DNA of 50,006 nucleotides. Origin: Sphingobacteriaceae bacterium (GTDB taxonomy: Bacteria; Bacteroidota; Bacteroidia; Sphingobacteriales; Sphingobacteriaceae). Below, in pieces: positions 8,155 through 40,307 of the stretch. Position 1 is the stretch's first letter; each line of letters starts with the position of its first letter. Position numbers and translations under genes: made by a program. Where the stretch lies: the NCBI GenBank assembly GCA_947460875.1, contig CANHGR010000015.1, positions 1 to 50,006 of the forward strand. The letters are read 5' to 3'. The notes beneath the pieces were generated by a model. It did not search any database. It was given only the letters and a program-made list of their open reading frames with translations, and was not told the origin of the DNA.

Positions 8155-8565
8155 TTGTCCACACTTCAATAATTATAATTTATTATATAAAAAGAATACT
8201 ATTGTTTATTATGATGTTAGTTATGTTAAGAAAATATAAGGTGAATTTTTGATATTCTTATTTATAAGTTTCTTTCAACAAATTATTAACACAAATACTT
8301 AATTTCTTTACTTGGAGCTAGGTTTTGTGTAGATAAGTTGATCAGGTTGTTGTTACGACGTTGATATTTTAGTTCTAGTTTTTAGGTTAACAAAATCAAA
8401 TTCGTTGCGCAAAACTATTTAGTAATTTTTTTGTTTTAGGATCAAATCAAGCCAATAGAGCTTTTTTAAAAATCTTGAAATAGTTTCTAGACAAAATTAA
8501 CATCTTTATAGCTGTTTATATACATTTTATAAAAGCATAGATGATTCGTATAATTTTTTGTTTAA
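8155..8565. other. AT-rich nadA-nadB divergent intergenic region
   Basis: About 410 bp without a convincing coding frame separates the divergent NAD genes. It is strongly AT-rich. It must hold promoters for both genes, but I found no complete TTTG/TAnnTTTG pair at good spacing on either strand, only partial matches such as TACTATTG near 8199. No riboswitch, tRNA or repeat was recognised. Confidence 0.4.
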
Positions 8566-10152: not shown

Positions 10153-10182
10153 GATGTTATTTATTCAATTTGATTATATAGT

Positions 10183-12307: not shown

Positions 12308-12338
12308 TTATAAGGCTTTAGAGAGATTTTTGGCTGTG

Positions 12339-12346
12339 CAAATATA
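12339..12346 (-). promoter_or_regulatory. Candidate -7 promoter box upstream of the Ig-like lipoprotein
   Basis: On the minus strand these bases read TATATTTG, a full match to the Bacteroidota -7 consensus TAnnTTTG. It lies 32 bp before the lipoprotein start, giving a leader of about 25-30 nt. No clear TTTG is found at -33 spacing, so support is partial. Confidence 0.35.
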
Positions 12347-12432
12347 AAGCATTAGCACACTCGAGATATGCTGTCTGAGGGCTTTATTTTTAGTTTGTTT
12401 ATTTCCCAGGTAAAGCATTGTTAATGAGTGAT

Positions 12433-14295: not shown

Positions 14296-14311
14296 GATTT
14301 TATTTTCTCAA

Positions 14312-14327
14312 TGTTCCACGTGGAACA
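14312..14327. promoter_or_regulatory. parS-like ParB binding palindrome
   Basis: The 16-bp perfect inverted repeat TGTTCCACGTGGAACA occupies the middle of the 32-bp gap between the ABC-F stop codon and the mnmG start codon. It differs from the Bacillus consensus TGTTTCACGTGAAACA only at the symmetric pair of positions where parS sites are known to vary, and it equals the form reported for pseudomonads. ParB nucleates on such sites to load SMC and segregate the origin region. I found only this copy in the window. The identification is from sequence match; ParB binding is inferred. Confidence 0.75.
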
Positions 14328-24832: not shown

Positions 24833-25081
24833 ATGATGACTATTCAAGAATTTACACAACTCGATGTTTACGAAAAAGCGGAAGTAGCCTGGACCGGAAA
24901 CTTCATTGCAGACAGAATGGATAAAGCTGATATCGTCCAGTTATATATACTTGAAAATTTCTTTGTAGAGATATTTTACAATCTTCTTGATAGCGAAATT
25001 ATCACAGTGAGACCGTTTACTAACGTTCATTTTTTGGAAGCCTATTGCGAACATATTGATATTTCAAACCTGGTGTGTTAA
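24833..25081 (+). CDS. Small conserved hypothetical protein upstream of the ars operon
   Basis: The 82-residue acidic protein shows ADRMDKADIVQLYILENFFVEIFYN and RPFTNVHFLEAYCEHIDIS. This pattern resembles a family of roughly 80-aa Bacteroidota proteins (LYxLxxFYVEVFYN ... LxPYLxxIDIS) that I recognise but cannot name. No signal peptide or metal motif is seen. Two start codons occur in tandem at 24833 and 24836. The next gene, arsR, starts 46 bp later on the same strand, so cotranscription is possible, but a link to arsenic is not shown. Function unknown. Confidence 0.6.
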   Translation: MMTIQEFTQLDVYEKAEVAWTGNFIADRMDKADIVQLYILENFFVEIFYNLLDSEIITVRPFTNVHFLEAYCEHIDISNLVC

Positions 25082-25107
25082 CATAAAGTTTATATTCTTA
25101 AAATTTA

Positions 25108-25127
25108 ATCGTAATATTGCAATTAAT
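25108..25127 (+). promoter_or_regulatory. Operator-like site directly before arsR
   Basis: The 20 bases before the arsR ATG start with AATCGTAATATTGCAAT and contain the palindromic core ATTGCAAT. A near copy lies before the DUF6428 gene at 25471-25490. The site includes TAATATTG, one mismatch from the -7 consensus, so bound ArsR would block transcription. ArsR autoregulation is established for the family; assignment of this site is inference. Confidence 0.5.
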
Positions 25128-25454
25128 ATGGGACTCACTAAAACAGAGATCTTTACGGATGAACAAAATAAGCTGGCTTTGATGCTGAAGGCGATGGCTC
25201 ATCCGGCTCGAATTGCAATACTGCAGAGTATCATTCAGGCAAATGCCTGCATCTGTGGCGATCTTGTTCATGAACTCGGTCTGGCACAAGCCACAATTTC
25301 ACAACATCTTAGGGAACTAAAAAATGCTGGACTTATAAAGGGTACCATCGAAGGGGTAAGTGTCTGTTACTGTATCAGCCCAGAAAATTGGAAGCTTTTA
25401 GAAAAGCACTTCGCGTCCTTTATGGGAGCTTATAAAGGGTCAATGTGTTGCTAA
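25128..25454 (+). CDS. arsR: ArsR-family metalloregulatory repressor
   Basis: ArsR/SmtB repressors bind operators as dimers and release DNA when As(III) or another metal binds cysteines. The 108-residue protein has a winged-helix domain (LMLKAMAHPARIAILQSI at 19-36, recognition helix QATISQHLRELKNAGLI at 54-70). Candidate As(III) ligands are C41/C43 (ACICGDLV, the place of the classic ELCVCDL motif), C80/C82 and the terminal C107-C108. The frame is open from 25056, but the ATG at 25128 gives the family N-terminus and lies immediately after the operator-like site. It heads the genes for DUF6428, ArsC and ACR3. Confidence 0.92.
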   Translation: MGLTKTEIFTDEQNKLALMLKAMAHPARIAILQSIIQANACICGDLVHELGLAQATISQHLRELKNAGLIKGTIEGVSVCYCISPENWKLLEKHFASFMGAYKGSMCC

Positions 25455-25470
25455 AAAAATATTTTCAGTC

Positions 25471-25490
25471 AATCGTTAAATTGCAATATT
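25471..25490 (+). promoter_or_regulatory. Second operator-like site, directly before the DUF6428 gene
   Basis: The 20 bases before the ATG at 25491 begin AATCGTTAAATTGCAAT and share the ATTGCAAT core and AATCGT flank with the site before arsR. The match suggests that ArsR controls an internal promoter here as well as its own. Confidence 0.5.
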
Positions 25491-26054
25491 ATGAATACAA
25501 TTGAATTATTGAGCTGGGGGGATTTTAAAGATACTCTTAAGCAACATCCGGAAGCAATTCTGCAGTTTCAATACTCAGAAAATAAAATAGTAGATGCTTC
25601 CTATCATATCACGGAAATCAAACAGGCGCCCATTACGTCTGTGGATTGCGGCGGTGTTAAAAATAACTGGACAGAGGTGATCCTGCAACTTTGGGAGCCA
25701 GCAGGAAAAGAAGGCGGCAGGGCAATGGCAGTCAGTAAAGCTCTAACCATCGTAGAAGTAGTCGAAAACGTTTTGCCCTTAAACCCTGCCGGGATTGTAA
25801 AGATAGAATTTGGCAATTCTGAATACGATACTAGGCAAATGTATCCTGCAGAATTTAAAATTGAGGGTGAAAACCTAATTGTAAATTTAATGCCTGACTT
25901 TACCCAGTGTAAGGCGATAGGAAGAGGTGGAAGCTGTGGTACAACTGAAAAAGGACAAGAGGAGTGCTGTGCTCCGGCAGAGAAAAAGAAAGTAGAACCA
26001 GTTAAACTGGTAGCCAATGCAAGTTGCTGCGAGCCCGGTGGAGGCTGTTGCTAA
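25491..26054 (+). CDS. DUF6428 family protein with cysteine-rich tail
   Basis: The 187-residue cytosolic protein has an N-terminal domain matching the DUF6428 family found in Bacteroidota arsenic operons (LQFQYSENKIVDASYHITEI, SVDCGG, LQLWEP, ALTIVEVVENVLPL). After about residue 139 it changes to a Cys-rich tail: C140, C149 and vicinal pairs C159-C160, C179-C180, C186-C187. Vicinal cysteines bind As(III) in ArsD and related proteins, so arsenite binding is a reasonable inference. No activity is known to me. It lies between arsR and arsC with its own operator-like site. Confidence 0.85.
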   Translation: MNTIELLSWGDFKDTLKQHPEAILQFQYSENKIVDASYHITEIKQAPITSVDCGGVKNNWTEVILQLWEPAGKEGGRAMAVSKALTIVEVVENVLPLNPAGIVKIEFGNSEYDTRQMYPAEFKIEGENLIVNLMPDFTQCKAIGRGGSCGTTEKGQEECCAPAEKKKVEPVKLVANASCCEPGGGCC

Positions 26055-26086
26055 AAAATAAAAACCAACGGTTTAAAATTTACAAA

Positions 26087-26503
26087 ATGAAGAATGTTTT
26101 AGTATTATGCACGGGTAATAGTTGTCGTAGTCAGATCGCAGAAGGCTATTTGAGGCATTTTGCGGGCAAAAAAGCAAATATTTATAGCGCAGGGATTGAA
26201 ACTCATGGAGTTAATCCAAAAGCAATAAAGACAATGGCAGAAGATCATATTAATATTTCGATGCATACCTCCAACAATGTGGTTGAGTATCTGACTATCC
26301 CTTTTGACTTTGTGATCACCGTTTGTGATCACGCAAAAGAGAATTGTCCCTATTTTCCTACTCAAGGAGAGCGCTTGCATTTTAACTTCCCCGACCCTGC
26401 CAAAGCGATGGGAACCGATGAAGAAATAATGGCTGAGTTTAGAAGGATTAGAGATATGATAAAGGTTTACACAGCAGATTTTGTTAAAACGAAACTGAAC
26501 TAA
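26087..26503 (+). CDS. arsC: Arsenate reductase ArsC, thioredoxin-coupled type
   Basis: The 138-residue protein is a low-molecular-weight phosphatase-fold arsenate reductase that converts As(V) to As(III) for export. The P-loop CTGNSCRS holds nucleophile C8 and R14. C80 and C87 in [10 protein letters not shown] have the spacing of the resolving cysteines of Staphylococcus/Bacillus ArsC, and FPDPAKA supplies the general acid Asp. The frame is open from 26024, but the ATG at 26087 gives the standard MKNVLVLC start. It ends 1 bp before the ACR3 gene. Confidence 0.93.
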
Positions 26504-26504
26504 A

Positions 26505-27578
26505 ATGGCAATAGATCATTGTGCACCGGCTGCGGAACGTAAAAAGCTAAGCTTTTTGGATCGCTATTTAACCTTGTGGATTTTCTTGGCGATGGCGCTC
26601 GGCGTGTCTATTGGATATTTTATACCTTCTTCTTCTGCGCTGATTAACTCTTTTTCAAGTGGTACAACTAATATTCCGGTAGCAATCGGATTAATTTTAA
26701 TGATGTATCCGCCTCTGGCGAAAGTGAACTATGAAAAAATGGGTGAGGTGTTCAGGAATACTAAGGTACTTGGTGTATCACTGTTTCTGAATTGGGTGTT
26801 GGGACCAATACTTATGTTTGGGCTTGCAGTTATTTTTCTTCGTGATTATCCTGAATATATGGCGGGACTGATATTGATTGGTATTGCACGTTGCATTGCA
26901 ATGGTTGTAGTTTGGAACGAGTTAGCTGATGGAAATCGCGAATACGCGGCGGGTTTGATCGCTTTAAACAGCATTTTTCAAATTTTATTCTATAGCGTCT
27001 ATGCTTATTTGTTTATTACCGTGCTCCCTCCATTTTTCGGAATACAAGCACTCGAAGTAGATATTACAATTGGGCAAATTGCAGAAAGCGTTGGAATTTA
27101 CCTTGGGGTACCGTTTTTTATTGGAATAATTAGCAGGTATGGGCTAATTAAATTGAAGGGTAGAGAATGGTTTGAACAAAAATTCGTTGCTGCAATCTCG
27201 CCAATTACGCTGATAGCCTTATTGTTTACGATCATGATTATGTTTAGCCTTAAAGGCGAACTTATTGTCCAAATTCCAATGGATGTGCTGCTGATCGCGA
27301 TTCCACTTGTGATTTATTTTGCGATCATGTTTTTAGCCGGTTTCATCGTAGGTAAGTTTTTCGGCGCAGATTATTCAAAAAGCTCATCGATTGCATTTAC
27401 AGCCGCAGGTAATAATTTTGAACTCGCTATTGCCGTTTCGATTGGTGTCTTTGGAATAAATTCAGGTCAGGCATTTGCAGGAGTTATTGGGCCCTTAGTG
27501 GAGGTGCCGGCATTAATAGCTTTGGTTAATGTTGCCTTTTTTTTACGTAGAAAGCACTTTTCCGATTCGGGCGAATGA
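26505..27578 (+). CDS. acr3: ACR3-family arsenite efflux transporter
   Basis: The 357-residue membrane protein has about ten hydrophobic segments and ACR3 landmarks: [20 protein letters not shown] (14-33), [36 protein letters not shown] with the conserved Cys, and [19 protein letters not shown] near the C-terminus. ACR3 exports As(III) using the proton-motive force. It is the last gene of the ars operon. No arsA ATPase or arsD is present. Confidence 0.95.
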
Positions 27579-27912: not shown

Positions 27913-28083
27913 CGGTCGCAGGAAGGTCGTCGTCGTACAGATTTAGTACGTTGGGATAAATATACTACCGGTACATGGTGGGATAAAACTCCAGACAAAG
28001 ATGGTCATACAAATATTTTCCCTATCGGACTGAATGTTTTAGGAACATCTCCTCAATTGGTGCAAAATCCTGGTTACCAGTAA
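27913..28083 (+). pseudogene. 3' relic of a RagB/SusD-family gene
   Basis: The last roughly 55 codons before the TAA at 28081-28083 read EGRRRTDLVRWDKYTTG, WWDKTPDKDG, NIFPIGLNVLGTS and QLVQNPGY. This is the hallmark C-terminus of SusD-like glycan-binding lipoproteins ((R)RTDLxRWxKY ... FPIPxxxLxxNPxLxQNPGY). The rest of the roughly 500-aa gene, its signal peptide and a susC partner are missing. The upstream part of the open frame (to 27796) has no SusD similarity, and a terminator follows the stop codon. It marks a deleted carbohydrate-uptake locus next to the present sugar cluster. Confidence 0.8.
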
Positions 28084-28266: not shown

Positions 28267-29691
28267 ATGAACCAATTCAGTAAAGTAGCGTGCTTTATCC
28301 TGGCAAGCGCATTTTTTTCGCAATCAGGATACGCTCAAAGTCCGCCTGTTTCCATATCGTTAAACGATTTGGCAGAGTTTCGTTTTCCGGGTAAAAATTG
28401 GGTTTTGGCTTCTGATGCCACTGCTAGTTTAACCGCGGCTAATGTAATGAAACCAGTAAGTGGTACCGGGGTTGTAGTAAATACGAAAAGTGGTACTAAC
28501 CTTATTACTATACAAGAATACGGAGATGTGGAAATTGATCTGGATTTTATGGTAGCTAAAGGGAGCGCTACCGGAATCTGGCTGCAAGGCCGTTATAATA
28601 TACAATTATCAGATAGTTGGACAAAAACAAGTCCAACCTATGCTGATATGGGAGGCATCGGCCAGCGGAGCAATAATCCTAGTTCAGGAATTGAAGGCAT
28701 GGCTCCAATGATGAATGTTGCTAGGGCCCCTGGCTTGTGGCAGCATCTGAAAGTACGATTTGCCGCACCAAAATTTAATGCAAGCGGTGTTAAGACGTCT
28801 AATGCACGTTTTGAAGAAGTTTATGTGAATGGTGTACTCGTACAACAACAAGCAGAAGTAGCTGCGCCTTCACAACCTGCAATGTACAGTGATGAAAAAG
28901 CAGTAGGCCCGTTAGTACTGCAAGGCAGTGGAGGAACTGTGGCATTTCGAAATATTCGTCTTGCTCCCGTTGTTGCTATTCAGGCTCCGGTCGCTGTTGG
29001 TCCGCCGCGTCGTGGTGGTGTAAGAATAGTGAATCCAATTCTGCTTGATCCAAGCAATGAACCTTATCTATTAAGGGGTTATTTAAATTATGGCACGAAG
29101 AAACGTACGCATGTTATTTCAGTGGGGAGCCCTAATCAGACTAACTATTCTTATGATCTTAAGCAAGGTGCATTGTTACAAGTATGGAGAGGGAGATTTG
29201 TAGATGTCACCGAGATGTGGGAAGCTAGGGGAGAACCTCAATTGGAAAAACCTAATGGTAGCGTGGTAATTTTATCTGGCGCTCCTGCACTTGCATCCTT
29301 AGCTGATGCTAATGCAGTTTGGCCTGATTCTATCGCTTTTGACGATCTTAATAATAAAGGATATGTACTAGACCAGGCTAGAAATCCAACATTCAAGTAT
29401 GTATTTATGGGAGCTAATGTTGAAGACAAAATTTCTATTGCCATGAATGGTCAGTCTATTGTGCGTGAAATTAGTGTAAGCAACGCTCCAGCAAATTTCT
29501 ATTGTAGAGTTGCCGCAGCAGGCAAAATTGAATCTGTTGGCAAAGGATTGTACGCAATTGATGGAAAGTCGCATTATATTCAGGTGGATGCAAGGTTTAA
29601 GCCAACGCTAAGAAAGACAAGTAGTGGACAAGAACTGATCACAAGCATCGGCAATAGCGCCGGACCCCTAACATATTCTATAATCTGGTAA
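28267..29691 (+). CDS. Secreted DUF1080 (3-keto-disaccharide hydrolase family) protein with extra C-terminal domain
   Basis: The 474-residue protein has a signal peptide (about 1-24) and an N-terminal DUF1080/PF06439 domain (about 30-240): a concanavalin-like beta-sandwich with IDLDFMVAKGSATGIWLQGRYNIQLSDSW, WQHLKVRFAAPKF, YVNGVLVQQQ and a closing VAFRNIRLAP. After a Pro-rich linker a second, beta-rich domain (about 255-474; LRGYLNYGTKKRTHVISVGS, LQVWRGRFVDVTEMWEARGE) follows that I cannot name. PF06439 members hydrolyse 3-keto-glycosides. The gene starts a plus-strand set and its stop is 7 bp before the next ATG. Confidence 0.8.
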   Translation: MNQFSKVACFILASAFFSQSGYAQSPPVSISLNDLAEFRFPGKNWVLASDATASLTAANVMKPVSGTGVVVNTKSGTNLITIQEYGDVEIDLDFMVAKGSATGIWLQGRYNIQLSDSWTKTSPTYADMGGIGQRSNNPSSGIEGMAPMMNVARAPGLWQHLKVRFAAPKFNASGVKTSNARFEEVYVNGVLVQQQAEVAAPSQPAMYSDEKAVGPLVLQGSGGTVAFRNIRLAPVVAIQAPVAVGPPRRGGVRIVNPILLDPSNEPYLLRGYLNYGTKKRTHVISVGSPNQTNYSYDLKQGALLQVWRGRFVDVTEMWEARGEPQLEKPNGSVVILSGAPALASLADANAVWPDSIAFDDLNNKGYVLDQARNPTFKYVFMGANVEDKISIAMNGQSIVREISVSNAPANFYCRVAAAGKIESVGKGLYAIDGKSHYIQVDARFKPTLRKTSSGQELITSIGNSAGPLTYSIIW

Positions 29692-29698
29692 AAGAAAA

Positions 29699-31768
29699 AT
29701 GATGACTAATTATATAAAACTATATCGCTCAAGCAGATACTTGCTAAGCTGCATATTATGCAGTCTTTGTACCACAGTAGTAATGGCACAAACTGCCCCT
29801 GTACAAAATCGAACTACTGCAAATTCAGATACCAGCCGTCGCCAAACTGAAGACGAAATTTTCAGATTGCGCACAGTGCCTATTCCTCAGGGACTTTTAC
29901 TTGAAGTTGGCGGGATGGCATTTCTGCCCAATGATGCACTTGCTGTGGCAACTCGTCGTGGTGAAGTATGGATCATCAGTAATCCATATATGAAAAATAA
30001 TCAGGCTCCCAAATACCAGTTATTTGCACAGGGAATGCATGAGGTTTTGGGCATGAATTACGTTAATGGTGAGCTGTATGTTACTCAGCGCTCTGAATTA
30101 ACCCGTCTAAAGGATCTTGATGGTGATGGCAAAGCCGATTCATATGAAACGGTATATAGTTGGCCATTGTCGGGTAACTATCACGAATATTCGTATGGTC
30201 CGATGCTTGATAGAGATGGTAACATGATCTTGGCTTTAAATCTTGGATGGACAGGTAAGGAAGTTAGTTTGTCGAAATGGCATGGTTGGTTTCTTAAACT
30301 AACGCCGGACGGAAAAATGGAACCTTTTGCAACAGGCTTCCGCTCGCCGGCAGGAATGACATTAAATAACGATGGAGAAATCTTTTACGTGGAAAATCAA
30401 GGTGGATGGGTTGGTTCAGGCTACCTTGCTCACGTAGAAAAAGGAGATTTTATGGGGCATGTTGAAGGACTCAGATGGGCGGATCAGCCCGGATCTCCCG
30501 TTAAATTAAAGATCTCAGATATTCCTAATACCGGTGAGCCTAAATTCGACGTAGCTAAAAGAGTACCCGGATTGAAGACACCTGCAGTATGGATGCCTCA
30601 CGCAATTTTTGGAATTTCAACTTCAGGAGTTCTAAACTATGACACTAAAGGCAATATGGGGCCTTTTGAAGGTCAATTATTCGTTGGCGATCAGGGTCAG
30701 AGTAAGATTATGAGAATAGCTTTGGAGAAAGTTAAGGGAGTTTATCAGGGAGCGGCTTTCTTGTTCCGCGCTGGGTTCTCTTCTGGAATTTTGCGTATGA
30801 ACTGGGGTTCTGATGGCAGTATGTTTGTAGGAATGACCTCCCGTGGCTGGGGGTCAACGGGCACTTCGCCTTTCGGCTTACAACGCCTAGAATGGAGTGG
30901 AGTGACTCCTTTTGAAATCAAAACGATCAAAGCACAACCTGACGGTTTTGAATTAGAATTTACTGCACCTGTAAATGAAGCCAGTGCGCGTAATGTAGGT
31001 TCATATGCAATGAGAAGTTTCACATACAAATACCATTCTACCTATGGAAGTCCGGCAATCAATGCAAGTAATCGGCAGATCAAAGCGATTGTAGTTTCTC
31101 CTGATAGAATGAGAGTTCGTTTGGTTGTTGACAGCTTGAAAGAAGGCTATATACATGAGATTAAAGCAGAGGGAGTACAATCGACAGACAAGTTGTTAGT
31201 GATGCATAACGTTGGATATTATACACTTAACCGTATACCCGATGGCGAAAAAGTTGTAATAACTAGCGCTAACATGGTAACGACCGCAGATCATAATATG
31301 GCGGCGATGTCTACTGCGGCAGGGGCAACTACTCCGCTCAGAGCTGCGGCTAGTGGCAAGCATGTTACCACTCAACCTGCGGATTGGACTACCGGAGCGG
31401 ATCGTACAATTGTTCTTGGCGTAAGACCCGGATTGAAGTATGACGTAGAAGCAATTACTGTTAAAGCAGGAAGCAAGATAAAACTGACTTTTAACAATAA
31501 TGATGATATGCAGCATAACGTAGTTATCACAGAACCGGGAATGGCCACTCTTGTAGGAGAAATGGCCCTTAAATTAGGCATTGATGGAGAGCGTCTAAAT
31601 TTTGTTCCGACAACTCCAAACGTGGTTGTTCATACATTTTTATTGCAGCCTGGAAAATCAGACTCTATTTATTTCCTTGCACCTGATAAGCCGGGTGAAT
31701 ACCAATACCTGTGTACTTATCCAGGTCATTTTATGGTTATGAGAGGTACTCTTAAAGTTGAAAAATGA
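29699..31768 (+). CDS. Secreted dehydrogenase-like beta-propeller fused to a blue-copper (cupredoxin) domain
   Basis: The 689-residue protein has a signal peptide (about 1-30). A sugar-dehydrogenase/NHL-type beta-propeller follows (about 55-400; GMAFLPNDALAVATRRGEVWII, LKDLDGDGKADSYETV, GFRSPAGMTLNNDGEIFYVENQG, PHAIFGISTSG). A linking beta region (about 410-510) leads to a C-terminal plastocyanin/auracyanin-like domain. Its type-1 copper ligands are H606 (MQHNVV), C672, H677 and M681 (CTYPGHFMVM). The propeller part is related to GSDH-like proteins used by cytochrome-linked oxidoreductases. An internal redox chain from propeller to copper is inferred. Two ATGs, 29699 and 29702, are adjacent. 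Confidence 0.85.
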   Translation: MMTNYIKLYRSSRYLLSCILCSLCTTVVMAQTAPVQNRTTANSDTSRRQTEDEIFRLRTVPIPQGLLLEVGGMAFLPNDALAVATRRGEVWIISNPYMKNNQAPKYQLFAQGMHEVLGMNYVNGELYVTQRSELTRLKDLDGDGKADSYETVYSWPLSGNYHEYSYGPMLDRDGNMILALNLGWTGKEVSLSKWHGWFLKLTPDGKMEPFATGFRSPAGMTLNNDGEIFYVENQGGWVGSGYLAHVEKGDFMGHVEGLRWADQPGSPVKLKISDIPNTGEPKFDVAKRVPGLKTPAVWMPHAIFGISTSGVLNYDTKGNMGPFEGQLFVGDQGQSKIMRIALEKVKGVYQGAAFLFRAGFSSGILRMNWGSDGSMFVGMTSRGWGSTGTSPFGLQRLEWSGVTPFEIKTIKAQPDGFELEFTAPVNEASARNVGSYAMRSFTYKYHSTYGSPAINASNRQIKAIVVSPDRMRVRLVVDSLKEGYIHEIKAEGVQSTDKLLVMHNVGYYTLNRIPDGEKVVITSANMVTTADHNMAAMSTAAGATTPLRAAASGKHVTTQPADWTTGADRTIVLGVRPGLKYDVEAITVKAGSKIKLTFNNNDDMQHNVVITEPGMATLVGEMALKLGIDGERLNFVPTTPNVVVHTFLLQPGKSDSIYFLAPDKPGEYQYLCTYPGHFMVMRGTLKVEK

Positions 31769-31808
31769 AGAATATAAAAATTATAAACTAAACCCAAAAA
31801 ATTGAATT

Positions 31809-32678
31809 ATGAAAAGTTCAGCGTTTTTAATAACTACCTTATTAGTAGTAAGTGTCATCGCGGCTAGTGCTCAAACACCAGCCCCAACGACGGCGCCTGC
31901 AACCACTCCAGGTCAGGCTTCTAGAACAACAGCTACCGCCCCCGGTCAAGCGGGAGCCCCTAGAGCGAGAGGTAATCCTGAAGAAACAGAAGTTTGGGAG
32001 CCACTACCGAAAGTAATTGCGCCAGGAAAAACCTTCAGCGACGCACCGTCTGATGCTACTATTTTATTTGATGGAAAGGATCTAAGTCAATGGGTATCTT
32101 CAAGAGATAAGTCTGAGGCAAAGTGGTCTGTTGCCGATGGTAATTTTACTGTTGTTTCCTCTACAGGTGGTATTCAAACTAAAAACTCTTTTACTAATTA
32201 TCAATTACATATTGAATTCCGGGTTCCAGAAACTGTAACCGGCGAAGGACAAAACCGTGGGAATAGTGGAATCTTCCTCGCTGCAACACGTGGTAATGCA
32301 GGTGGTTATGAGATACAGGTATTGGATGGATACAATAACGAAAACAAAACGTATGTGAATGGAATGGTGGGTAGTATGTATAAGGAGTCTATTCCATTGG
32401 CAAATCCAGCACGTAAAAAAGGTGAATGGAATGTTTATGATATCGTCTGGACTGCACCAACATTTCATGAAGATGGAACAGTGAAAACCCGGGCGAGAAT
32501 AACAGCATTCCTAAATGGTGTATTGGTTCAAAACAACTATGAGCTTCTGGGCGAAACTGCATTCATAGGAAAACATGACTACGTAAAAGGTGGTCACGGC
32601 CCCCTGCCAATTAGTTTGCAGGCGCATGGTAATCCGGTTAGTTACCGCAATATTTGGCTGAGAGAGCTAAAAAAATAA
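31809..32678 (+). CDS. Secreted DUF1080 (3-keto-disaccharide hydrolase family) protein
   Basis: The 289-residue protein has a signal peptide (1-21), a Pro/Thr/Ala-rich linker (about 22-60) and one PF06439 domain (about 75-289). It shows ATILFDGKDLSQWVS, AKWSVADGNFTV, NYQLHIEFRVPE, NSGIFLAATRGNAGGYEIQVLD, GEWNVYDIVWTAP and a closing NPVSYRNIWLRELKK. These are core features of the family, including the NSGIFL strand and the Glu-containing EIQVLD strand that lines the active cleft. It lies 40 bp after the cupredoxin-fusion gene and ends before a long stable hairpin. Confidence 0.88.
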   Translation: MKSSAFLITTLLVVSVIAASAQTPAPTTAPATTPGQASRTTATAPGQAGAPRARGNPEETEVWEPLPKVIAPGKTFSDAPSDATILFDGKDLSQWVSSRDKSEAKWSVADGNFTVVSSTGGIQTKNSFTNYQLHIEFRVPETVTGEGQNRGNSGIFLAATRGNAGGYEIQVLDGYNNENKTYVNGMVGSMYKESIPLANPARKKGEWNVYDIVWTAPTFHEDGTVKTRARITAFLNGVLVQNNYELLGETAFIGKHDYVKGGHGPLPISLQAHGNPVSYRNIWLRELKK

Positions 32679-32721
32679 TTTTTAAGTAGTTCAATTTGAA
32701 CCTCATCCAAGTTAGTAAGAT

Positions 32722-32745
32722 CGCTGCCTGCATTTGCGGGCAGCG
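32722..32745 (+). terminator. Stable hairpin after the third gene of the plus-strand sugar set
   Basis: A 10-bp stem, CGCTGCCTGC (32722-32731) and GCGGGCAGCG (32736-32745) with one G.U pair, closes an ATTT loop. It is followed by CCTTTA, not a real U-run. It may be a weak terminator or an mRNA 3'-end stabiliser that lowers expression of the gene at 32881. Confidence 0.5.
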
Positions 32746-32880
32746 CCTTTACTCACGATTATTATTCCACTAAACTGATATCAATTGAGGAAGTTTTGCC
32801 AAAACATCCCGAGAATAACCAGTTTCTGACAGGTGTATAATCAATTGAATTAAGATAAACTAACGCTGACCAATTTCTTC

Positions 32881-33525
32881 ATGAAAAAACTAATCTTAAT
32901 TGCACTGTTACTACCTTGGATGGTGGTTGCTAATGCCCAGACGAAAAGGCTGAAGCCGATGTTTAATGGAAAGAATTTACAGGGCTGGAGTAGTTTTCTA
33001 CGTACATCAGGCCTAAATAATGATCCACAACAGGTTTTCGTCGTTGAAAAGAAAATGATACACGTACGGGGAAAAGAATTTGGCTATATAATAACAGATA
33101 AGAGTTATAAAGATTTTCATTTTTCGGTGGATTTTAAATGGGGAGTGGAGAAATATGCGCCAAGATTGACCGCAGTTAGAGACGCAGGTATTCCTAACAA
33201 AATTTGGCCTCTATCTGTAGAATGTCAGATTCAGGAAGGTGATGTTGGGGATATTTGGTTGCTTGACCGCGCTACTGCAGTAGTTGATGGGAAAGTCACC
33301 ACACCAGGAAACTCAGTACGTGTGCAAAAGAAAAAGGACAATGAAAGGCCAACAGGAGATTGGAATACAGTCGAGGTTGTTTCTAAAAACGGAAAGTTTT
33401 CTTACTATGTTAATGGATTACTGGTGAATGAAGGAGAAAATGCTAGTACTAAAGAAGGCAGAATTTTGCTTCAGGCGGAAGGAGCAGAACTTTTTTACCG
33501 CAATGTTAAGATCGCAGAATTATAA
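32881..33525 (+). CDS. Secreted DUF1080 (3-keto-disaccharide hydrolase family) protein, short form
   Basis: The 214-residue protein has a signal peptide (1-19, ending NAQ) and a single PF06439 domain: KPMFNGKNLQGWSSFL, VEKKMIHVRGKEFGYIIT, FHFSVDFKWG, PLSVECQIQEGDVGDIWLLD, GDWNTVEVVSKNGKFSYYVNGLLVNEGENA and a closing EGAELFYRNVKIAEL. The Glu-containing VECQIQEGD strand matches the family active-site strand. It is set apart from the previous gene by 202 bp with the hairpin at 32722-32745, so it may have its own promoter. Confidence 0.88.
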   Translation: MKKLILIALLLPWMVVANAQTKRLKPMFNGKNLQGWSSFLRTSGLNNDPQQVFVVEKKMIHVRGKEFGYIITDKSYKDFHFSVDFKWGVEKYAPRLTAVRDAGIPNKIWPLSVECQIQEGDVGDIWLLDRATAVVDGKVTTPGNSVRVQKKKDNERPTGDWNTVEVVSKNGKFSYYVNGLLVNEGENASTKEGRILLQAEGAELFYRNVKIAEL

Positions 33526-33825
33526 AAAATGTGATGGTCTGACAGCATCAATAAATACCTATTGAAGGCTTAAGTAAACTCGATAAGTCTCTTTTCATTC
33601 AGATTTATCTGTGTTTGAGATCTTAGTAGTAAAAACCGGATTCTTCTTTTTTAAACTCGATTTTTAGAGTACTTCATTCGTTAATATAATGGTATTTAGT
33701 AAATTTCGATAACTGATAATATTTTATAAGAGTTAGCAGAAGTTCAGATGTGATTTTTATTGTTTTACAATCGAAATCACTAATTAGGCACTGACTAACA
33801 ACAAGTTACACACAAAAAAACTTTT
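33526..33825. other. AT-rich gap between the DUF1080 gene and tRNA-Pro
   Basis: Three hundred bases of AT-rich sequence without a credible frame. The promoter of tRNA-Pro should lie at its right end, but I could not fix a clear -33/-7 pair. No repeat of the tRNA 3' end, as would mark an integration site, was found. Confidence 0.4.
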
Positions 33826-33899
33826 CGGGATGTAGCGTAGCCAGGTATCGCGCCAGCATGGGGTGCTGGAGGTCGGAAGTTCGAATCTTCTCATCCCGA
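33826..33899 (+). tRNA. tRNA-Pro (anticodon GGG)
   Basis: The 74-nt sequence folds as a cloverleaf. The acceptor stem CGGGATG (33826-33832) pairs with CATCCCG (33892-33898), with discriminator A at 33899. A D-arm follows (33835-33851). The anticodon stem CCAGC/GCTGG (33853-33857, 33865-33869) has loop ATGGGGT with anticodon GGG at 33860-33862. The T-arm has the TTCGAAT loop. The 5' CGGGATG start is typical for proline tRNA. CCA is not encoded, as usual in Bacteroidota. Confidence 0.96.
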
Positions 33900-34002
33900 C
33901 GAATTGAAGCTTTCTGAGAGGTCTCCAAGGACAATAGCGGAAAGCGTTTAATAACTTTTCCCGCATCTGCAACTAGGCCAAGTACCGACTGGAATTTCTG
34001 TG

Positions 34003-36294
34003 CTATTTAATTTGGTTTAACTCGTCCATCGTAAAGCTTTGTTGCCGGGACGGAAATTTGCGACGGACCGCCGAAATATCAGCGGCGCTAACCCGCTCTG
34101 CGTTATTGTTCCAGGAGTTTCTAATAAAGCTGAGCAAGGAAGCGATGTCCTCGTCGCCAAAAGCGATGTTCTGGCCAAGTGCAGGCATGTCGCCATTAAT
34201 TTCCGGACTCTTATATACTTTCCCGTTAACGCTTATCGGACCGGAAAGTCCATACAAAATAATTGAGGCTAGCTTGGTTTTGTCGCCTGTGACCCACTCA
34301 GAATTATTTAATGGCGGTGCAAGCGCCGTAACGCCGTTACCGTCTGAGCCGTGACAGGCTTGACAGATGGATCGATAGATTGCCACCCCCCTTGAGAATT
34401 CTCTTTCAGGAGGGATTCTTGTATTTCGGGCGCTTTCGCGAGTTTTGATGGCTGTCAATACTCGTTGAAGTTGCCGGCGGATAACTAGGCCGGTATCGGG
34501 GTTTGCAGCGATCAATTCTTTTTCAAACTCCGCTTCACTGTTTTGAATGCCACTAACCACTGCGTCTGATACAAAGTTGTTTTTCGGGAAGATTGATACT
34601 GCTTTTCGTCGTAGTCGGTTTGCCGTCGCCGGATCAAAATTCTGGATAGATTGTGCTAGAAACGCGATGTAAGGGGCTGAGCTTTCGTCTTTTTGATCAA
34701 GGATGTTGTCTAAGGCAGCAACGTAAGTGGCGAAGTTCTGTCGGCTAAGCACGGAGTTCACTGCTGTCAGTGCCTGTGCGCGGATATGAGCATCGGTGTT
34801 TGCTAGCAAGGGCATTAAATCTGAAGATTGTAAATCTTGTAGGCCTTCTATGGTCCATAGAGCATGGATAGTCGTTAACGGATTGACAGGGTTCTTTACT
34901 AGTTTGCGTAGAGCCGGTAGCACTTGCACAGATTTTTTGTCAACAAGCAGTTGTTGTGCTTTATCCCGCACCCAACCGTTTGGATGCTGTAGCAGAGTCA
35001 CTAATTTTTTTGGATCAGTGCTCAAAGTGGCGGCAATCGCTTTTTTGTCTGACGGAACAACCTTGTAGATTCTACCTAAGCTGCTGGGCGTAGTAAGATC
35101 GCGTTTTTTAACTTCACCCTTTAGATATCCGGTGATGTAAGTACGGTGCTGGATAATACCTCGGTACATGTCGACAACGTACATGGCCCCATCCGGACCG
35201 TTATACAAGTTAACAGGTCTAAAGCGCTCGTCTTTGCTCGCTAAGAACTCCTTTTCTGCATACGCTTGCTTTCCTAGGATTTGAAAGGCACTTTCTTCAA
35301 GAATGTTTCTTTTAATTAGATTAGCCGCTGGTTCGGCAACGAAAGCGTTATTTTCATATTCTTTGCTAAAAAGGTTGCCACGGTAAACTACCGGGCCGCA
35401 AGCGGCGGTAAAGTTGACGAGCCGCATGTTTTTATCTAACACGCCGTCTTGGTAGCCGCGATTAACTCCCGGCGTTGGTCGAATGGGATAAACACGATTG
35501 CTTTTGACTACGTTCTCATTAAATCCGGCAACGCGCTGAAGGTTGCTATTTCCGGAGCCAAAACCCGGACTAAAGAACTCGCCGATAAGGTTTTGAGAGT
35601 TATTATTATAATAAAGCCTTCCGTAGTTGTCTTGTGTAATACCCCACTGTCCTCTGAAATGAGTTTTTTCTATCAACCATGCGTCTCCGTTCTTGCGGTA
35701 TCTTTTTGCTGATTTCGCATTATAAATCCAGTTGTCCAACGCTCGCATAAGGCCATTTGGTTCATGTTCTACGTTGCCACCGTCGGTATAATTGCCGTCA
35801 ACCAGCACTTTTTTGCCCGGTTTATCGGCGTTTATTTCAAAGAACCAAAGATTCGGTGATTCCGCTACTAAAATGCCGTTTTCTATCAGGCACAATCCGC
35901 GGGGGAGTATTAGAGAATCGAGAAATACTTTTCGGTTGTCCATGATGCCGTCCTTGTTGGTATCTTCAAGGATGACAATTTTACCGTGTGGAAACTCTTC
36001 TCCTGATCCCAAAGTATCCGGCATATAGCCGTCCATTTCTGCCACCCACATTCTTCCCTTATCGTCAAATACCATGGCTACGGGCGTACGGACAAGCGGT
36101 TCTGCAGCTACCAATTGAACTTTAAAGCCCTCTTCTAAGACCATCTGTTTCATGGATTCTTCCGGGGATAAAACAGGAGAATTTGTTAAGGTATCGTCCG
36201 GGCGAATAGCATTTCCAGAAAATCTGTAAGATGCACTCATCGTAAATAATCCAATGACTCCCAGAATAGCTGCCAGCGAGCGAAGTTTTTTCAT
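34003..36294 (-). CDS. Secreted membrane-bound-dehydrogenase-type propeller with HEAT repeats and C-terminal cytochrome c
   Basis: The 763-residue protein has a signal peptide (about 1-25). A dehydrogenase-type beta-propeller follows (about 45-410; EPLVRTPVAMVFDDKGRMWV, DTNKDGIMDNRKVF, YNGPDGAMYVVDMYRGIIQHRTY). A HEAT-repeat helical region (about 420-600) leads to a C-terminal c-type cytochrome with CQACH (C644, C647, H648) and a likely axial Met in GDMPALG. The layout matches the Pirellula/Verrucomicrobia-type putative membrane-bound dehydrogenase family with a PVC-type haem domain, common in Planctomycetes, Verrucomicrobia and Bacteroidota. The substrate is unknown. It starts directly where the two-domain DUF1080 gene ends, so both are in one operon. 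Confidence 0.88.
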   Translation of the reverse strand: MKKLRSLAAILGVIGLFTMSASYRFSGNAIRPDDTLTNSPVLSPEESMKQMVLEEGFKVQLVAAEPLVRTPVAMVFDDKGRMWVAEMDGYMPDTLGSGEEFPHGKIVILEDTNKDGIMDNRKVFLDSLILPRGLCLIENGILVAESPNLWFFEINADKPGKKVLVDGNYTDGGNVEHEPNGLMRALDNWIYNAKSAKRYRKNGDAWLIEKTHFRGQWGITQDNYGRLYYNNNSQNLIGEFFSPGFGSGNSNLQRVAGFNENVVKSNRVYPIRPTPGVNRGYQDGVLDKNMRLVNFTAACGPVVYRGNLFSKEYENNAFVAEPAANLIKRNILEESAFQILGKQAYAEKEFLASKDERFRPVNLYNGPDGAMYVVDMYRGIIQHRTYITGYLKGEVKKRDLTTPSSLGRIYKVVPSDKKAIAATLSTDPKKLVTLLQHPNGWVRDKAQQLLVDKKSVQVLPALRKLVKNPVNPLTTIHALWTIEGLQDLQSSDLMPLLANTDAHIRAQALTAVNSVLSRQNFATYVAALDNILDQKDESSAPYIAFLAQSIQNFDPATANRLRRKAVSIFPKNNFVSDAVVSGIQNSEAEFEKELIAANPDTGLVIRRQLQRVLTAIKTRESARNTRIPPEREFSRGVAIYRSICQACHGSDGNGVTALAPPLNNSEWVTGDKTKLASIILYGLSGPISVNGKVYKSPEINGDMPALGQNIAFGDEDIASLLSFIRNSWNNNAERVSAADISAVRRKFPSRQQSFTMDELNQIK

Positions 36295-37688
36295 TAAAGG
36301 GCTTTAATTTTTATGCTTCTGTAAGAAACTAAATTGCCGTGATCTTGTATCAGAATATGGCCGGAGGTCGCTTCCCCGAAATTTTTAAATGGCGTATACT
36401 TACTTAATGCTACCAGATCGCGATATTCTTTTGATCCTCGCACATACGAAAGGACTTTGATCCCATTCAGGTAATGCTCTACGCTGTTATCCGGATAAAC
36501 GACAACCCTGCCAGTATTCCATTGTCCGGGCGCACGTATAAAGCGATTCTCTTTTTTAGCGGCCATCAGGTCGTAAAGCGAGCCAAGTGTCCTATTACCG
36601 TCGCGTCCTAATTTGGCATCAGGATGGCGCTCATCATCTAAAACCTGATATTCTAATCCGATTGCAGAGCCAGGGTTATTTTCAGATAAAGTGACGAAGT
36701 ATTTTACCCCGCTGTTTGCACCAGGTGTGATTTTAAATTCGAAAGATAGATCGAAAGATTTAAACTGTTCTTCAGATACAATATCGCCTCCGTTGGTCGA
36801 TTCTTTTCCTTCAGCAGCTAAGACTGTAAGCAAACCATTTTTCGCTGTCCATCCTTTTTCAGGGAAAGTCTTTTTGTAGGCGCCTTTCCACCCCTTTGAA
36901 GTTTCGCCGTCAAATAGTAAACGCCAGCCGTCTTGTTTCTCATAATCGCTTAACGCGTTAGGTGTTTTGTTGACCACATAAACCCCCTTTGGAAAAGGCG
37001 TTGGCTGAAGATTAGATGTTTTAATTCGAATGTCTTTAAAATAGACTTTTTTATTTGCCCCTTCAGCATTTGTAATACCATGCATTTGAAGAGCGATGAA
37101 GCCGCTTTGATCTAGGGTATCTACAACATATCCGCAAGGAATTCCATTTACCCAGGTTTTCATTTCGTTGCCGATGCATTCAATTTTTAGGTGGTTAAAC
37201 TCGCCAACTTTAAAAGCGTCCTGAGCAGTAGAATTTAATGTCATCGGATATAGCCAATCACGTCTTCCCTCATCATAAATACCTCCGCTCCATTTTCTGG
37301 TTGACGGATCAATTTCGATTTGCCGACCGAATACTCTTCCTTTGCCCTTGTTAGCTGCCGGATCATAATGACTGCGAACTTGCACGCCGGAATTGCTAAG
37401 AGTACTTTCAACCTTTACGTCAAGCTCCAAAACAAAATCGGCATATTCTTTTTCGTAAACAAGAAAGCTATTTCCAGAATTAAGTACAGCAGTACTGGTG
37501 CCAAGAATTTGGCCTTTTTCTACTTTATAATTAGCATCGCCGGCCATTTGCTTCCATCCTTCGAGCGATTTACCGTCAAATAGTTTGGTCCAACCTTTTT
37601 CTGCTTTTTGGGCAAAGCTGGATGAGAATGACGCTGCGATCAATATCAGGGGCAATACATTTTTAACGGTGGTTAAGATATTTTTCAT
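36294..37688 (-). CDS. Secreted protein with two DUF1080 (3-keto-disaccharide hydrolase family) domains
   Basis: The protein of about 464 residues starts with a signal peptide (MKNILTTVKN onward, cleavage near residue 27). Two tandem PF06439 domains follow. The first (about 30-225) has WTKLFDGKSLEGWKQM, NSGVQVRSHY, RQIEIDPSTRKWSGGIYDEG and VYFKDIRIK. The second (about 250-464) has WRLLFDGETSKGWKGAY, NSGVKYFVTL, EYQVLDDERHPDA, SLYDLM and VSYRSIKIKAL. Both keep the Glu strand (EID, EYQVLD). The 37688 ATG was preferred because the two codons before it start from TTG. The last base of the stop codon is shared with the next gene start. Confidence 0.9.
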   Translation of the reverse strand: MKNILTTVKNVLPLILIAASFSSSFAQKAEKGWTKLFDGKSLEGWKQMAGDANYKVEKGQILGTSTAVLNSGNSFLVYEKEYADFVLELDVKVESTLSNSGVQVRSHYDPAANKGKGRVFGRQIEIDPSTRKWSGGIYDEGRRDWLYPMTLNSTAQDAFKVGEFNHLKIECIGNEMKTWVNGIPCGYVVDTLDQSGFIALQMHGITNAEGANKKVYFKDIRIKTSNLQPTPFPKGVYVVNKTPNALSDYEKQDGWRLLFDGETSKGWKGAYKKTFPEKGWTAKNGLLTVLAAEGKESTNGGDIVSEEQFKSFDLSFEFKITPGANSGVKYFVTLSENNPGSAIGLEYQVLDDERHPDAKLGRDGNRTLGSLYDLMAAKKENRFIRAPGQWNTGRVVVYPDNSVEHYLNGIKVLSYVRGSKEYRDLVALSKYTPFKNFGEATSGHILIQDHGNLVSYRSIKIKAL

Positions 37689-37768
37689 GAACAATCTGTT
37701 GGTTTTAATTGCTGTTGGCTTTTACGCTTAATTAAAGATAAGGGTTTTATAAAAAACATAGTCATATG

Positions 37769-39073
37769 CTAGATATTTACTCTCTCCATCTTAGGTGTTA
37801 AGATATGCATGAGCAGCCATGCTAGTAAATACGCGCTGCCACAGACGAAAAACATAATGTAATAGCCTGTTTCAAGGTGTCCCTGGCTTTTGTAATAATC
37901 AAATAGCGGACCTACAATTTTAGCGATAGCCATTCCTCCAAATGCACCTGCCATACCGCCTAACCCGGCTACGGAAGCAATTGCTTTTTTCGGAAACATA
38001 TCAGATACCGTCGTAAAAATGTTTGCGCTCCAAGCCTGATGCGCGGCAGTTACAAATCCGATCACAAGAACGGCGAACCAAACATTAATGCTGCCTAAAT
38101 ATTGGGCGGCCATCACCGGTAATGAGCCAGCTGCATAAATCAACATTGAAGTTTTTCTTGCTCTGGTCACCGTCCATCCATTTTTAATAAATCGCATAGG
38201 CAACCACCCACCCCCAACGCTGCCGATGGTGGCTAGGCTATAGACTAAGGCTACCGGAAGTACGATATCTGTTCCGCTGAGGTTATATTCAGCTTTTAAA
38301 AATGCGGGTAGCCAAAAAAGGTAAAACCACCAGATGGGGTCAGTCAGAGTTTTGCCGATCATGAAAGTCCACGTTTGCTTATATCCTAACAACTTGCGCC
38401 AAGATACTTTTTCATCGCCGGCTACTTTAGCGGCTGCTTCATCATCATGATCGCTGTGAATATAATCAAACTCTGCTTTGCCCAATTTCGGATGATCTTC
38501 AGGTTTTTGATACATGATAAACCAAAAAATTAACCAGAAAAAACCTAGCGAACCTGTTAAAATGAATGCCCATTGCCATCCCCAGGCCTCAACGATGAAG
38601 GGCACCGTGAGTGGCGCCACTACCACGCCAATATTTGTTCCGGCATTAAAAATACCAGTAGCAAGCGCTCGCTCTTTTTTAGGAAACCATTCTGCCGCCG
38701 ATTTAACTGCTGCTGGCAGATTGCCTGCTTCGGATATACCAAGCGCCGCACGGGCTATAAAAAATCCGAATGTGCTTTGTACCCAACCATGGCCCATTGC
38801 TGCCAGGCTCCAAAGAAAAACTGAAATAGCGTAGCCTAGTTTAGTACCGATTTTGTCGATTAATCGCCCCACGCTAAGCATCCCGATAGCATATGATAAT
38901 TGGAAAGCTATAACGATGTTAGCGTAATCTGTTTCCGACCACTTAAATTCTTGTTCAAGCGTAGGCTTTAAGAGACTGATCACAGAGCGGTCGAGGTAAT
39001 TGATCGTGGTCGCAATAAATAATAGCGAACAAATCGTCCACCGGTAGTTTCCTACGGGACTGGTTTCTTTCAT
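37769..39073 (-). CDS. MFS transporter, anion:cation symporter (hexuronate-type) family
   Basis: The 434-residue protein has twelve predicted membrane segments and family signatures: ATTINYLDRSVISLLKPTL near the N-terminus, GRLIDKIGTKLGYAISVFLW (the MFS loop 2-3), ARAALGISEAGNLPAAVKSAAEWFP, KKERALATGIFNAGTNIG and the central cytosolic loop with YQKPEDHPKLG. ACS-family members such as ExuT carry hexuronates and other sugar acids. A sugar acid or 3-keto-sugar product as substrate is inference from neighbours. It is 80 bp upstream of the two-domain DUF1080 gene on the same strand. Confidence 0.9.
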   Translation of the reverse strand: MKETSPVGNYRWTICSLLFIATTINYLDRSVISLLKPTLEQEFKWSETDYANIVIAFQLSYAIGMLSVGRLIDKIGTKLGYAISVFLWSLAAMGHGWVQSTFGFFIARAALGISEAGNLPAAVKSAAEWFPKKERALATGIFNAGTNIGVVVAPLTVPFIVEAWGWQWAFILTGSLGFFWLIFWFIMYQKPEDHPKLGKAEFDYIHSDHDDEAAAKVAGDEKVSWRKLLGYKQTWTFMIGKTLTDPIWWFYLFWLPAFLKAEYNLSGTDIVLPVALVYSLATIGSVGGGWLPMRFIKNGWTVTRARKTSMLIYAAGSLPVMAAQYLGSINVWFAVLVIGFVTAAHQAWSANIFTTVSDMFPKKAIASVAGLGGMAGAFGGMAIAKIVGPLFDYYKSQGHLETGYYIMFFVCGSAYLLAWLLMHILTPKMERVNI

Positions 39074-39122
39074 TGGTTTAACTGTATTAGGTCGGTCTGG
39101 GTTATCACGTTCAAGGTACTAA

Positions 39123-40307
39123 TTAATTCAATATTTCAACCATTACTTCCGCGCCCTTGCGTTCGGCCGAAACATAGCCGGTATATATTGTGGTTATCAC
39201 ATCTGCTGCAAGCTTACTATTGCTTTCTACAGGTTCGTTAAAAGCAGCTGATCTGTAAAAGGCATCCATTTCATGTTGATAGCCTGTATACCAATCTTCA
39301 TCAGGCGAGATAGAAGACCAACCTTGCTTGGTTTCGGTCTTTTCAACAACATAAATGTCTTTATAATATTCTTCTGAAGGCGTATAAGACTGCATGGAAT
39401 TGTTAGGATTGATGTTACAAATTGTTCGATGGTTGTTGGCATTAACTTCCAGCCAGTTATGTACCCCACCTAAAACCAGCTCACTGGCAAATATGGTAGC
39501 TATGGTACCGTCGTCGAACGTGATATGCAGCATGGCAAAATCTTCGATATCCGTATAGCCGCTTTTTAAGTGACCTTTATCTTCAAATGAAGGCAGGCGT
39601 GTGATAGCGTGGGTCCGGGCCGAAATTGACTTAGGCCGTATTGGATGACCGTTTTTAACGCGGCCTTCAACATGCTTCAGATAGATAGCTGCCGTTAATG
39701 GGTGACACCCTTTGCCGATCATCGATCCGCCGCCAGATAAGTGCCATTTTCCGTAGGCTAAAGAATGAGATCCCGAATGCGATTCTTCGCCGTGCATCCA
39801 AAGAATTTGTGCTCCCGTTTTTTCCAGGATTTCCCGTTCTTTTTGGATTGAAGGTGCATAGACCCAATTCTCGGCGTACATGATTTTTCCTTGACTTTTT
39901 TTCTCTGCTTCTAGCATACGCGCGATGCTTTTTAGCGTTTCTTTGAGTCCTTCTTCTCTAGAGAAAGTGTCACCATTAAAGTCGGCGCTGCCATTGCCAA
40001 AATATCCCGTAAAGGGCTTTTCTACAATCACATGCTTGTTTTTCTTAAGTGCTGCGATGACAAAAGGTTCGTGTGTTACTGGCGGAGTGCAGATATGCAA
40101 CACATCAGATTGATCGATAAGCTCATCTAAATGATGAAATGCCTTAAGGTTGCGGATAAGGGCAAACTCTTCCATCTTAGACGCAGTTGACGAATGAACC
40201 CCTACAATCTCAACATTGGTACTGAAAACCCTCCTTAAGGCTTCAAAGTGAAATTTCGCAGCAAAGCCCGATCCGACAATACCAGCACGAATTATTTGGT
40301 TCTCCAT
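39123..40307 (-). CDS. Gfo/Idh/MocA-family NAD(P)-dependent oxidoreductase
   Basis: The 394-residue protein starts with a Rossmann fold (IRAGIVGSGFAAKFHFEAL, from about residue 6), followed by the EKPF motif (HVIVEKPFTG) and a C-terminal beta-sheet domain with GKGCHPLTAAIYLKH as the catalytic segment. Family members oxidise or reduce sugars and cyclitols, several at C3, giving 3-keto-sugars. There is no twin-arginine or other signal peptide, so it acts in the cytosol. The frame is open to 40361 but the ATG at 40307 matches the family N-terminus. It is probably the first gene of the minus-strand set reading into the MFS transporter. Confidence 0.9.
   Translation of the reverse strand: MENQIIRAGIVGSGFAAKFHFEALRRVFSTNVEIVGVHSSTASKMEEFALIRNLKAFHHLDELIDQSDVLHICTPPVTHEPFVIAALKKNKHVIVEKPFTGYFGNGSADFNGDTFSREEGLKETLKSIARMLEAEKKSQGKIMYAENWVYAPSIQKEREILEKTGAQILWMHGEESHSGSHSLAYGKWHLSGGGSMIGKGCHPLTAAIYLKHVEGRVKNGHPIRPKSISARTHAITRLPSFEDKGHLKSGYTDIEDFAMLHITFDDGTIATIFASELVLGGVHNWLEVNANNHRTICNINPNNSMQSYTPSEEYYKDIYVVEKTETKQGWSSISPDEDWYTGYQHEMDAFYRSAAFNEPVESNSKLAADVITTIYTGYVSAERKGAEVMVEILN

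Follow-up and report, generated by a model that had tools for sequence, protein, structure and literature searches.

We analysed a 50,006-nucleotide stretch of a Sphingobacteriaceae genome (contig CANHGR010000015.1; hereafter, the window), in which eight genes at positions 28267-40307 are arranged on two converging strands and encode candidate components of glycoside degradation by oxidation and subsequent cleavage. Four of the genes (L1-L4) lie on the plus strand and four (R4, R3, R2 and R1, reading leftwards from 40307) on the minus strand. L1 (28267-29691) encodes a predicted secreted DUF1080 protein (PF06439, 68.8 bits) with an additional C-terminal domain, L2 (29699-31768) a propeller fused to a type-1 copper cupredoxin, and L3 (31809-32678) and L4 (32881-33525) single-domain DUF1080 proteins that also appear to be secreted (PF06439, 144.6 and 99.1 bits). 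On the facing strand, R4 (39123-40307) encodes a cytosolic Gfo/Idh/MocA oxidoreductase (GFO_IDH_MocA, 67.7 bits), R3 (37769-39073) a major facilitator superfamily (MFS) carrier of the hexuronate/aldonate (ACS) type (MFS_1, 196 bits), R2 (36294-37694) a putatively secreted protein with two DUF1080 domains (PF06439, 282.3 bits), and R1 (34003-36294) a DUF7133/TIGR02604 propeller followed by HEAT repeats and a c-type cytochrome. The strands converge on a plus-strand proline tRNA gene with a GGG anticodon (33826-33900), identified by ARAGORN and Rfam. All of these protein parts had been listed in a first-pass annotation of this DNA, and Pfam and NCBIfam profile searches recovered each of them in its place; a profile scan of the proteins likewise bore out the absence of any glycoside hydrolase (GH) family gene in 28267-40307.

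Calculated from the coordinates, the gaps are 7, 40 and 202 bp within L1-L4 and 49, 74 and -1 bp within R4-R1, where R1 and R2 overlap by one base. Because the genes are so closely spaced, L1-L2-L3 and R4-R3-R2-R1 look like operons, and R4-R3-R2-R1 is probably a single one. Promoter and terminator scans scored the real sequence no better than shuffled sequences. The ATG start of R4 at 40307 lies inside a longer TTG frame that reaches 40361. Inspection of the N-termini by eye suggests that L1-L4, R1 and R2 carry signal peptides and that R4 has none.

The family of L2 provides evidence for the role of the propellers. In the family alignment, the same propeller is followed by either a type-1 copper domain, with the azurin-type His...Cys...His...Met pattern, or a CxxCH cytochrome. 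Pfam agrees on both carriers, with Copper-bind in L2 itself (50.4 bits) and Cytochrom_C above its cut-off in the homologues at loci L060 and L063. Among 36 distinct full-length L2 homologues, 18 carry copper, 18 carry a c-type cytochrome and none lacks a carrier. In a tree built from the propeller only, all cytochrome versions fall on one side of a branch with support of 100/98, and a single change of carrier is needed, versus a mean of 12.2 after shuffling. An exchange of copper and haem at the same place is expected if the electrons of the propeller must leave it, and the alternation is thus sequence evidence that L2 propellers deliver electrons. We therefore consider it very likely that L2 is a periplasmic dehydrogenase that exports electrons.

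The profile scores of L2 itself are modest: DUF7133 passes (32.2 bits; cut-off 27), GSDH (PF07995) falls just under its threshold (22.9 bits; cut-off 25), and TIGR02604 stays well below it (44.9 bits; cut-off 122.2), the cupredoxin taking the place of the haem domain. Two residues, His162 (in YHEY) and Arg215 (in RSPAG), are near-invariant in the family; we presume that they may serve as catalytic base and cofactor ligand, by analogy with soluble glucose dehydrogenase. A profile search of the PDB with the L2 propeller alone returned nothing useful, and an AlphaFold model built without an alignment was unusable (predicted local distance difference test, pLDDT, 32). The R1 and L2 families matched weakly in a profile-profile comparison (probability 18%, E 0.0013), which lined up HFRGQWG of R1 with GFRSPAG of L2.

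R1 scores 329.9 bits for DUF7133 and passes TIGR02604 (199.3 bits; cut-off 122.2) with the CxxCH cytochrome present. Cytochrom_C matches with 32.8 bits, HEAT_2 reaches 21.9 bits (below its cut-off of 27.7), and no match of R1 to PF07995 was listed in the Pfam scan. The CxxCH motif at residues 644-648 and Met703 are invariant in 17 aligned rows. When the predicted structure of R1 (mean pLDDT 74.7) was compared with solved structures, the best match of the propeller was a pyrroloquinoline quinone (PQQ) sugar dehydrogenase, 3a9g, with a Z score of 15.8, and the C-terminal cytochrome matched the haem domain of a Ralstonia nitrite reductase. R1 is probably a periplasmic dehydrogenase with its own redox carrier. 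The first-pass annotation had proposed that both propellers look like enzymes of this kind, and the carrier alternation of L2 together with the fold matches of R1 agree with it.

Close to the N-terminus, all sixteen aligned homologues of R1 share a lipobox-like cysteine that R1 of the window does not have, so R1 may be free in the periplasm where its relatives would be lipoproteins. Each of three R1 homologues (loci L094, L095 and L097; about 50% identical) is part of a row of genes that includes a KDPGal-type aldolase, and the first of these rows also holds a galactonate dehydratase. The 2.2-Mb genome contains nine DUF7133/TIGR02604 propeller matches.

The candidate partners of the propellers are the DUF1080 proteins, a family with known roles on 3-keto-glycosides (PMC9007349). 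L1, L3, L4 and R2 all pass the curated PF06439 cut-off of 26.8 bits, giving five domains in four proteins, and both domains of R2 were also resolved separately in the domain scan. The nearest solved structures are 4jqt for R2 (447 bits) and 4qhz for L3 (247 bits); L4 matched solved structures weakly. The E-x-Q-x-L-D stretch of the solved relatives is kept in the second domain of R2 and in L3. The C-terminal domain of L1 (residues ~255-474) is conserved in all ten aligned L1 homologues that adjoin L2, and no Pfam model matches it; it may mediate docking to the propeller.

We then turn to the genomic neighbourhoods of the right half. Of 99 relatives, 3 have R4, and in all three R1 is no more than about 10 kb away. 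Scanning GTDB genomes, we obtained 80 loci with an R4 orthologue (58-78% identity), whose neighbours were clustered and then named by NCBIfam and Pfam; 16 of these loci have R1 in the vicinity of R4, and R3 adjoins R4 in 26 loci, the window included. In Pontibacter (loci L105 and L108) the order is R2, an exported Gfo/Idh, LacI, D-mannonate oxidoreductase, UxuA, UxaC, R4, R3, R1. In Pedobacter cryoconitis and Pedobacter antarcticus, SusC-SusD-R1-R2 is divergent from LacI-R4-R3-mannonate oxidoreductase-UxuA-UxaC-KdgK-Eda, and in Pedobacter quisquiliarum (L131) R1-R2 is divergent from R4-R3-mannonate oxidoreductase-UxuA-UxaC-KdgK-Eda. An intact SusCD pair precedes the same genes in two Pedobacter loci (L117 and L118). 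UxaC converts glucuronate to fructuronate, from which the mannonate branch continues. Judged by these gene orders, the right half belongs with glucuronate catabolism. The suggestion that the MFS carrier and the cytosolic Gfo/Idh/MocA protein go together with R1 and R2 is supported by this linkage in relatives. We discarded the idea that the right half is specific for lactose, as its conserved partners are glucuronate genes.

In the genome of the window, UxaC and UxuA are encoded elsewhere. Profile searches found UxaC (669.6 bits) on contig C6 and UxuA (415.3 bits) on contig C8, so that, with the window on C15, they are not adjacent to R1-R4 here. On C6, UxaC stands beside an altronate dehydratase gene and beside KdgK-like and Eda-like frames, recognised only by first residues that resemble named relatives; on C8, UxuA stands beside a short-chain dehydrogenase/reductase gene. 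The best match of R3 is TIGR00893 of the galactonate/ACS group (236.5 bits; cut-off 395), and R4 reaches 18.8 bits against NF058561, the model of the BT2158 glycoside 3-dehydrogenase, whose cut-off is 750. In several Bacteroidales (L120, L123, L124, L127, L130 and others), R4 orthologues of 65-70% identity lie beside a prolyl oligopeptidase, a PD40 propeller and three small conserved genes.

Orthologues of R2 have an exported-type Gfo/Idh within 180 bp in 9 of 16 loci, R2 adjoins R1 in P. quisquiliarum, and Pontibacter has both R1 and an exported Gfo/Idh in one locus. For three such exported proteins (cluster c3, Pontibacter c38 and locus L087), the nearest named family is glycoside 3-dehydrogenase, at scores far below its cut-off. 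In the window, R1 alone fills the place beside R2 that an exported Gfo/Idh takes elsewhere. The whole genome has no match to the GMC oxidoreductase family (PF05199); there is hence no GMC-type LacA and no LacABC-type 3-dehydrogenase, which removes the best known periplasmic 3-dehydrogenase.

The left half has a conserved context of its own. In each of the nine relatives examined at the outset, L1 is encoded immediately 5' of L2 in the same orientation, and in a class-wide sample the two are adjacent in 27 of 29 loci, mostly 60 bp or less apart. At locus L063 the order is SusC-SusD-L1-L2, the protein upstream of L1-L2 being SusD_RagB by Pfam. With this SusD as query, tblastn found a C-terminal SusD stub directly 5' of L1 in the window (27922-28080, plus strand), with 47% identity in a 53-residue alignment that extends to residue 543 of 544 (E 2e-13). 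Intact adjacent SusC and SusD genes are missing from the window locus, as had been noted before, and this stub is all that is present. Given the SusC-SusD-L1-L2 order in the relative and the 53-residue end of SusD retained in the window, the left half resembles a utilisation locus from which SusCD was lost, with the stub left behind. At a further locus of the same relative (L057), L1-L2 stands beside a Gfo/Idh, a TIM barrel and a giant propeller protein; the window's genome has orthologues of these three on contig C4 (85, 67 and 65% identical, respectively). The C4 giant concerned, the only giant scanned, combines ThuA and DUF7133. It is found in a region of C4 (L099, contig positions 1-20000) where three giant propeller proteins of about 1100-1160 aa each stand in a row at 1550-14635, together with a free-standing cupredoxin, a Gfo/Idh and a TIM barrel.

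The recurrence of L1-L2 and of R1 near R4 shows that the genes are grouped beyond chance. The two halves were found side by side only here among the genomes and loci examined, each half being conserved alone. The first nine L1-L2 regions of relatives contain no close orthologue of R1, R3 or R4, the propeller-cytochrome proteins there being distant (25-33% identical to R1), and the R1 and R4 loci examined contain no L1-L2 pair. The first-pass annotation had read all eight genes as one pathway and had named a neighbourhood not conserved in relatives as a ground for dropping this model. Conservation was seen for the pairs counted above and not for the cluster as a whole in the loci examined; of the pathway logic, the oxidase with its carrier and the linkage of transporter and Gfo/Idh/MocA found support, and the single eight-gene pathway did not. 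On the evidence of their neighbourhoods, the left and right halves are two separate modules, and the single-cluster reading was rejected because the halves lie apart in relatives.

We propose that this locus consists of two periplasmic modules facing each other, each of which would oxidise and then cleave its substrate independently of the other. In the right module, R1 would oxidise a glycoside of the glucuronic acid type in the periplasm, most likely at C3, and pass the electrons through its own haem to the respiratory chain. R2, with its two DUF1080 domains, would cleave the keto-glycoside, R3 would import the freed 3-keto-uronate, and R4 would reduce it with NAD(P)H to the uronate, to be consumed by UxaC and the rest of the hexuronate pathway. 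We propose this reductase role for R4 because making uronate is the step that it could add before UxaC, and because there is a precedent in LgdC (see below). In the left module, L2 would be a dehydrogenase similar to R1, with copper as carrier here and haem in its sister clade, and L1, L3 and L4 would be its DUF1080 partners, acting on a glycoside different from that of the right half. In this scheme we infer the dehydrogenase activity, the C3 position, the cofactor, the substrate and the direction of R4, and we regard the scheme of two modules as a whole, with R1-R4 acting on uronosides and L1-L4 on another glycoside, as quite possible, if a little short of probable. It is also possible, though here we are more tentative, that the DUF7133/TIGR02604 propellers and their L2 cousins form a new class of periplasmic glycoside 3-dehydrogenases with built-in, interchangeable haem and copper outlets, paired with DUF1080 cleavers, and that the right operon degrades glucuronosides by a 3-keto route in which no glycoside hydrolase is required.

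Several observations weigh against this proposal. SMP30 lactonases and an NHL domain come within one Z unit of the best quinoprotein match of R1, and the replacement of E by N in the conserved YEIQL motif of L1, seen in the family alignment, may indicate that L1 lacks enzymatic activity. In Bacteroidales and Planctomycetota, R4 is also found apart from uronate genes, and as the neighbours there differ, its role may be broader than the uronate pathway. PqqE was not found in a search of the genome, so PQQ, if it is the cofactor, must be imported. C3 oxidation by DUF7133 or L2 proteins is not reported in the literature accessible to our search. Finally, the R1 homologues that adjoin a galactonate dehydratase and a KDPGal-type aldolase fit the oxidation of galactose at C1 better, and favour C1 oxidation in those genomes. 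The same neighbours, the dehydratase being of the DgoD type, speak for a different account of R1 and L2, namely that they act as aldose 1-dehydrogenases of the kind of soluble glucose dehydrogenase or Asd and convert sugars freed by other enzymes to aldonolactones, for energy or aldonate uptake, while the DUF1080 proteins act separately. The solved relatives in the R1 fold search are indeed aldose or pyranose dehydrogenases, and R3 resembles galactonate/ACS carriers. However, oxidation of glucuronate at C1 gives glucarate, which UxaC does not use, and yet R1 stands in UxaC operons; nor does this account explain the fixed pairing of L1 with L2, or the presence of R1 beside R2 where other genomes have an exported Gfo/Idh. 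We consider it unlikely, although it deserves to be taken seriously.

We regard as improbable the idea that the propellers themselves cleave the glycosidic bond, or are lactonases or binding proteins, with the carriers serving another purpose. Lac161_ORF7, a protein with TIGR02604, HEAT and cytochrome c regions, released glucose from lactose when purified (PMC5342196), and SMP30-type lactonases rank close in the R1 fold search. But lactose oxidised at C3 could also fall apart to glucose, so that this activity separates none of the models, and the retention of a carrier by all 36 complete L2 homologues, with a single exchange between copper and haem, points to catalytic electron transfer. Least probable, in our judgement, is a single two-sided pathway in which both dehydrogenases act on the same substrate: the genes are adjacent in this genome and have protein families in common, but their conserved neighbours differ, the halves never occur together elsewhere in the regions read, and next to the L1-L2 pair of a relative stand orthologues of genes found here on a different contig.

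Oxidise-then-cleave degradation of glycosides is already a known kind of system, and what is added here is the carrier swap of L2 and the uronate assignment of the right half. The BT2156-BT2160 pathway of Bacteroides likewise combines a secreted DUF1080 cleaver with Gfo/Idh/MocA proteins and proceeds via 3-keto intermediates (PMC9007349), but its dehydrogenases are Gfo/Idh proteins (BT2158/BT2159 models), whereas the candidate oxidases here are haem or copper propellers and R4 lacks an export signal. The lactose 3-dehydrogenase LacABC of Caulobacter and Pedobacter shares cytochrome-linked periplasmic oxidation at C3 followed by a secreted DUF1080 protein (PMC9007349); LacA is a flavoprotein, while here oxidase and cytochrome form one polypeptide. 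The levoglucosan pathway (LgdA-LgdB1-LgdB2-LgdC) ends, as proposed for R4, with a cytosolic Gfo/Idh/MocA protein, LgdC, which reduces 3-keto-glucose to glucose (PMC10066097), but its oxidation is NAD-linked and intracellular, and its elimination step is carried out by TIM-barrel proteins rather than DUF1080 proteins. The PQQ sugar dehydrogenases (sGDH, Asd, AA12) are among the fold matches of R1, whose six-bladed propeller matches 3a9g, 2ism, 2g8s and AA12 entries, and their similarity to L2 is marginal, its GSDH match lying below the Pfam cut-off; R1 differs from them in the HEAT region between propeller and cytochrome.

Among the papers searchable, the TIGR02604 model is mentioned only in the study of Lac161_ORF7, a metagenomic "novel beta-galactosidase" assigned to Verrucomicrobia (PMC5342196). 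Its published architecture of TIGR02604, HEAT_2 and cytochrome c is the basis of its likeness to R1, from which it differs in being reported as a beta-galactosidase. It is the one biochemically tested protein of R1 architecture that we found in the literature, and it fits neither the C3 nor the C1 model cleanly. DUF7133/TIGR02604 proteins are numerous, and apart from this unusual report we found no function for them in the literature searched; the linkage to the uronate regulon gives R1 a concrete candidate class of substrates. If the proposal is true, glycosides can be opened by oxidation linked to the respiratory chain together with cleavage by DUF1080 proteins, and searches for glycoside hydrolases overlook such a route.

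The genome of the window also holds a second locus of 3-keto type (L102, contig C1:155000-174000, at 8863-14541 of that region), with a DUF1080 protein, a TIM barrel and an exported Gfo/Idh; the latter is the closest BT2158-like protein seen in the genome (414.7 bits; cut-off 750). Upstream of the locus, the window contains an arsenic-type operon (25056-27578) with an ArsR regulator, a DUF6428 protein, a low-molecular-weight phosphatase/arsenate-reductase-like protein and an SBF-family (ACR3-like) transporter.

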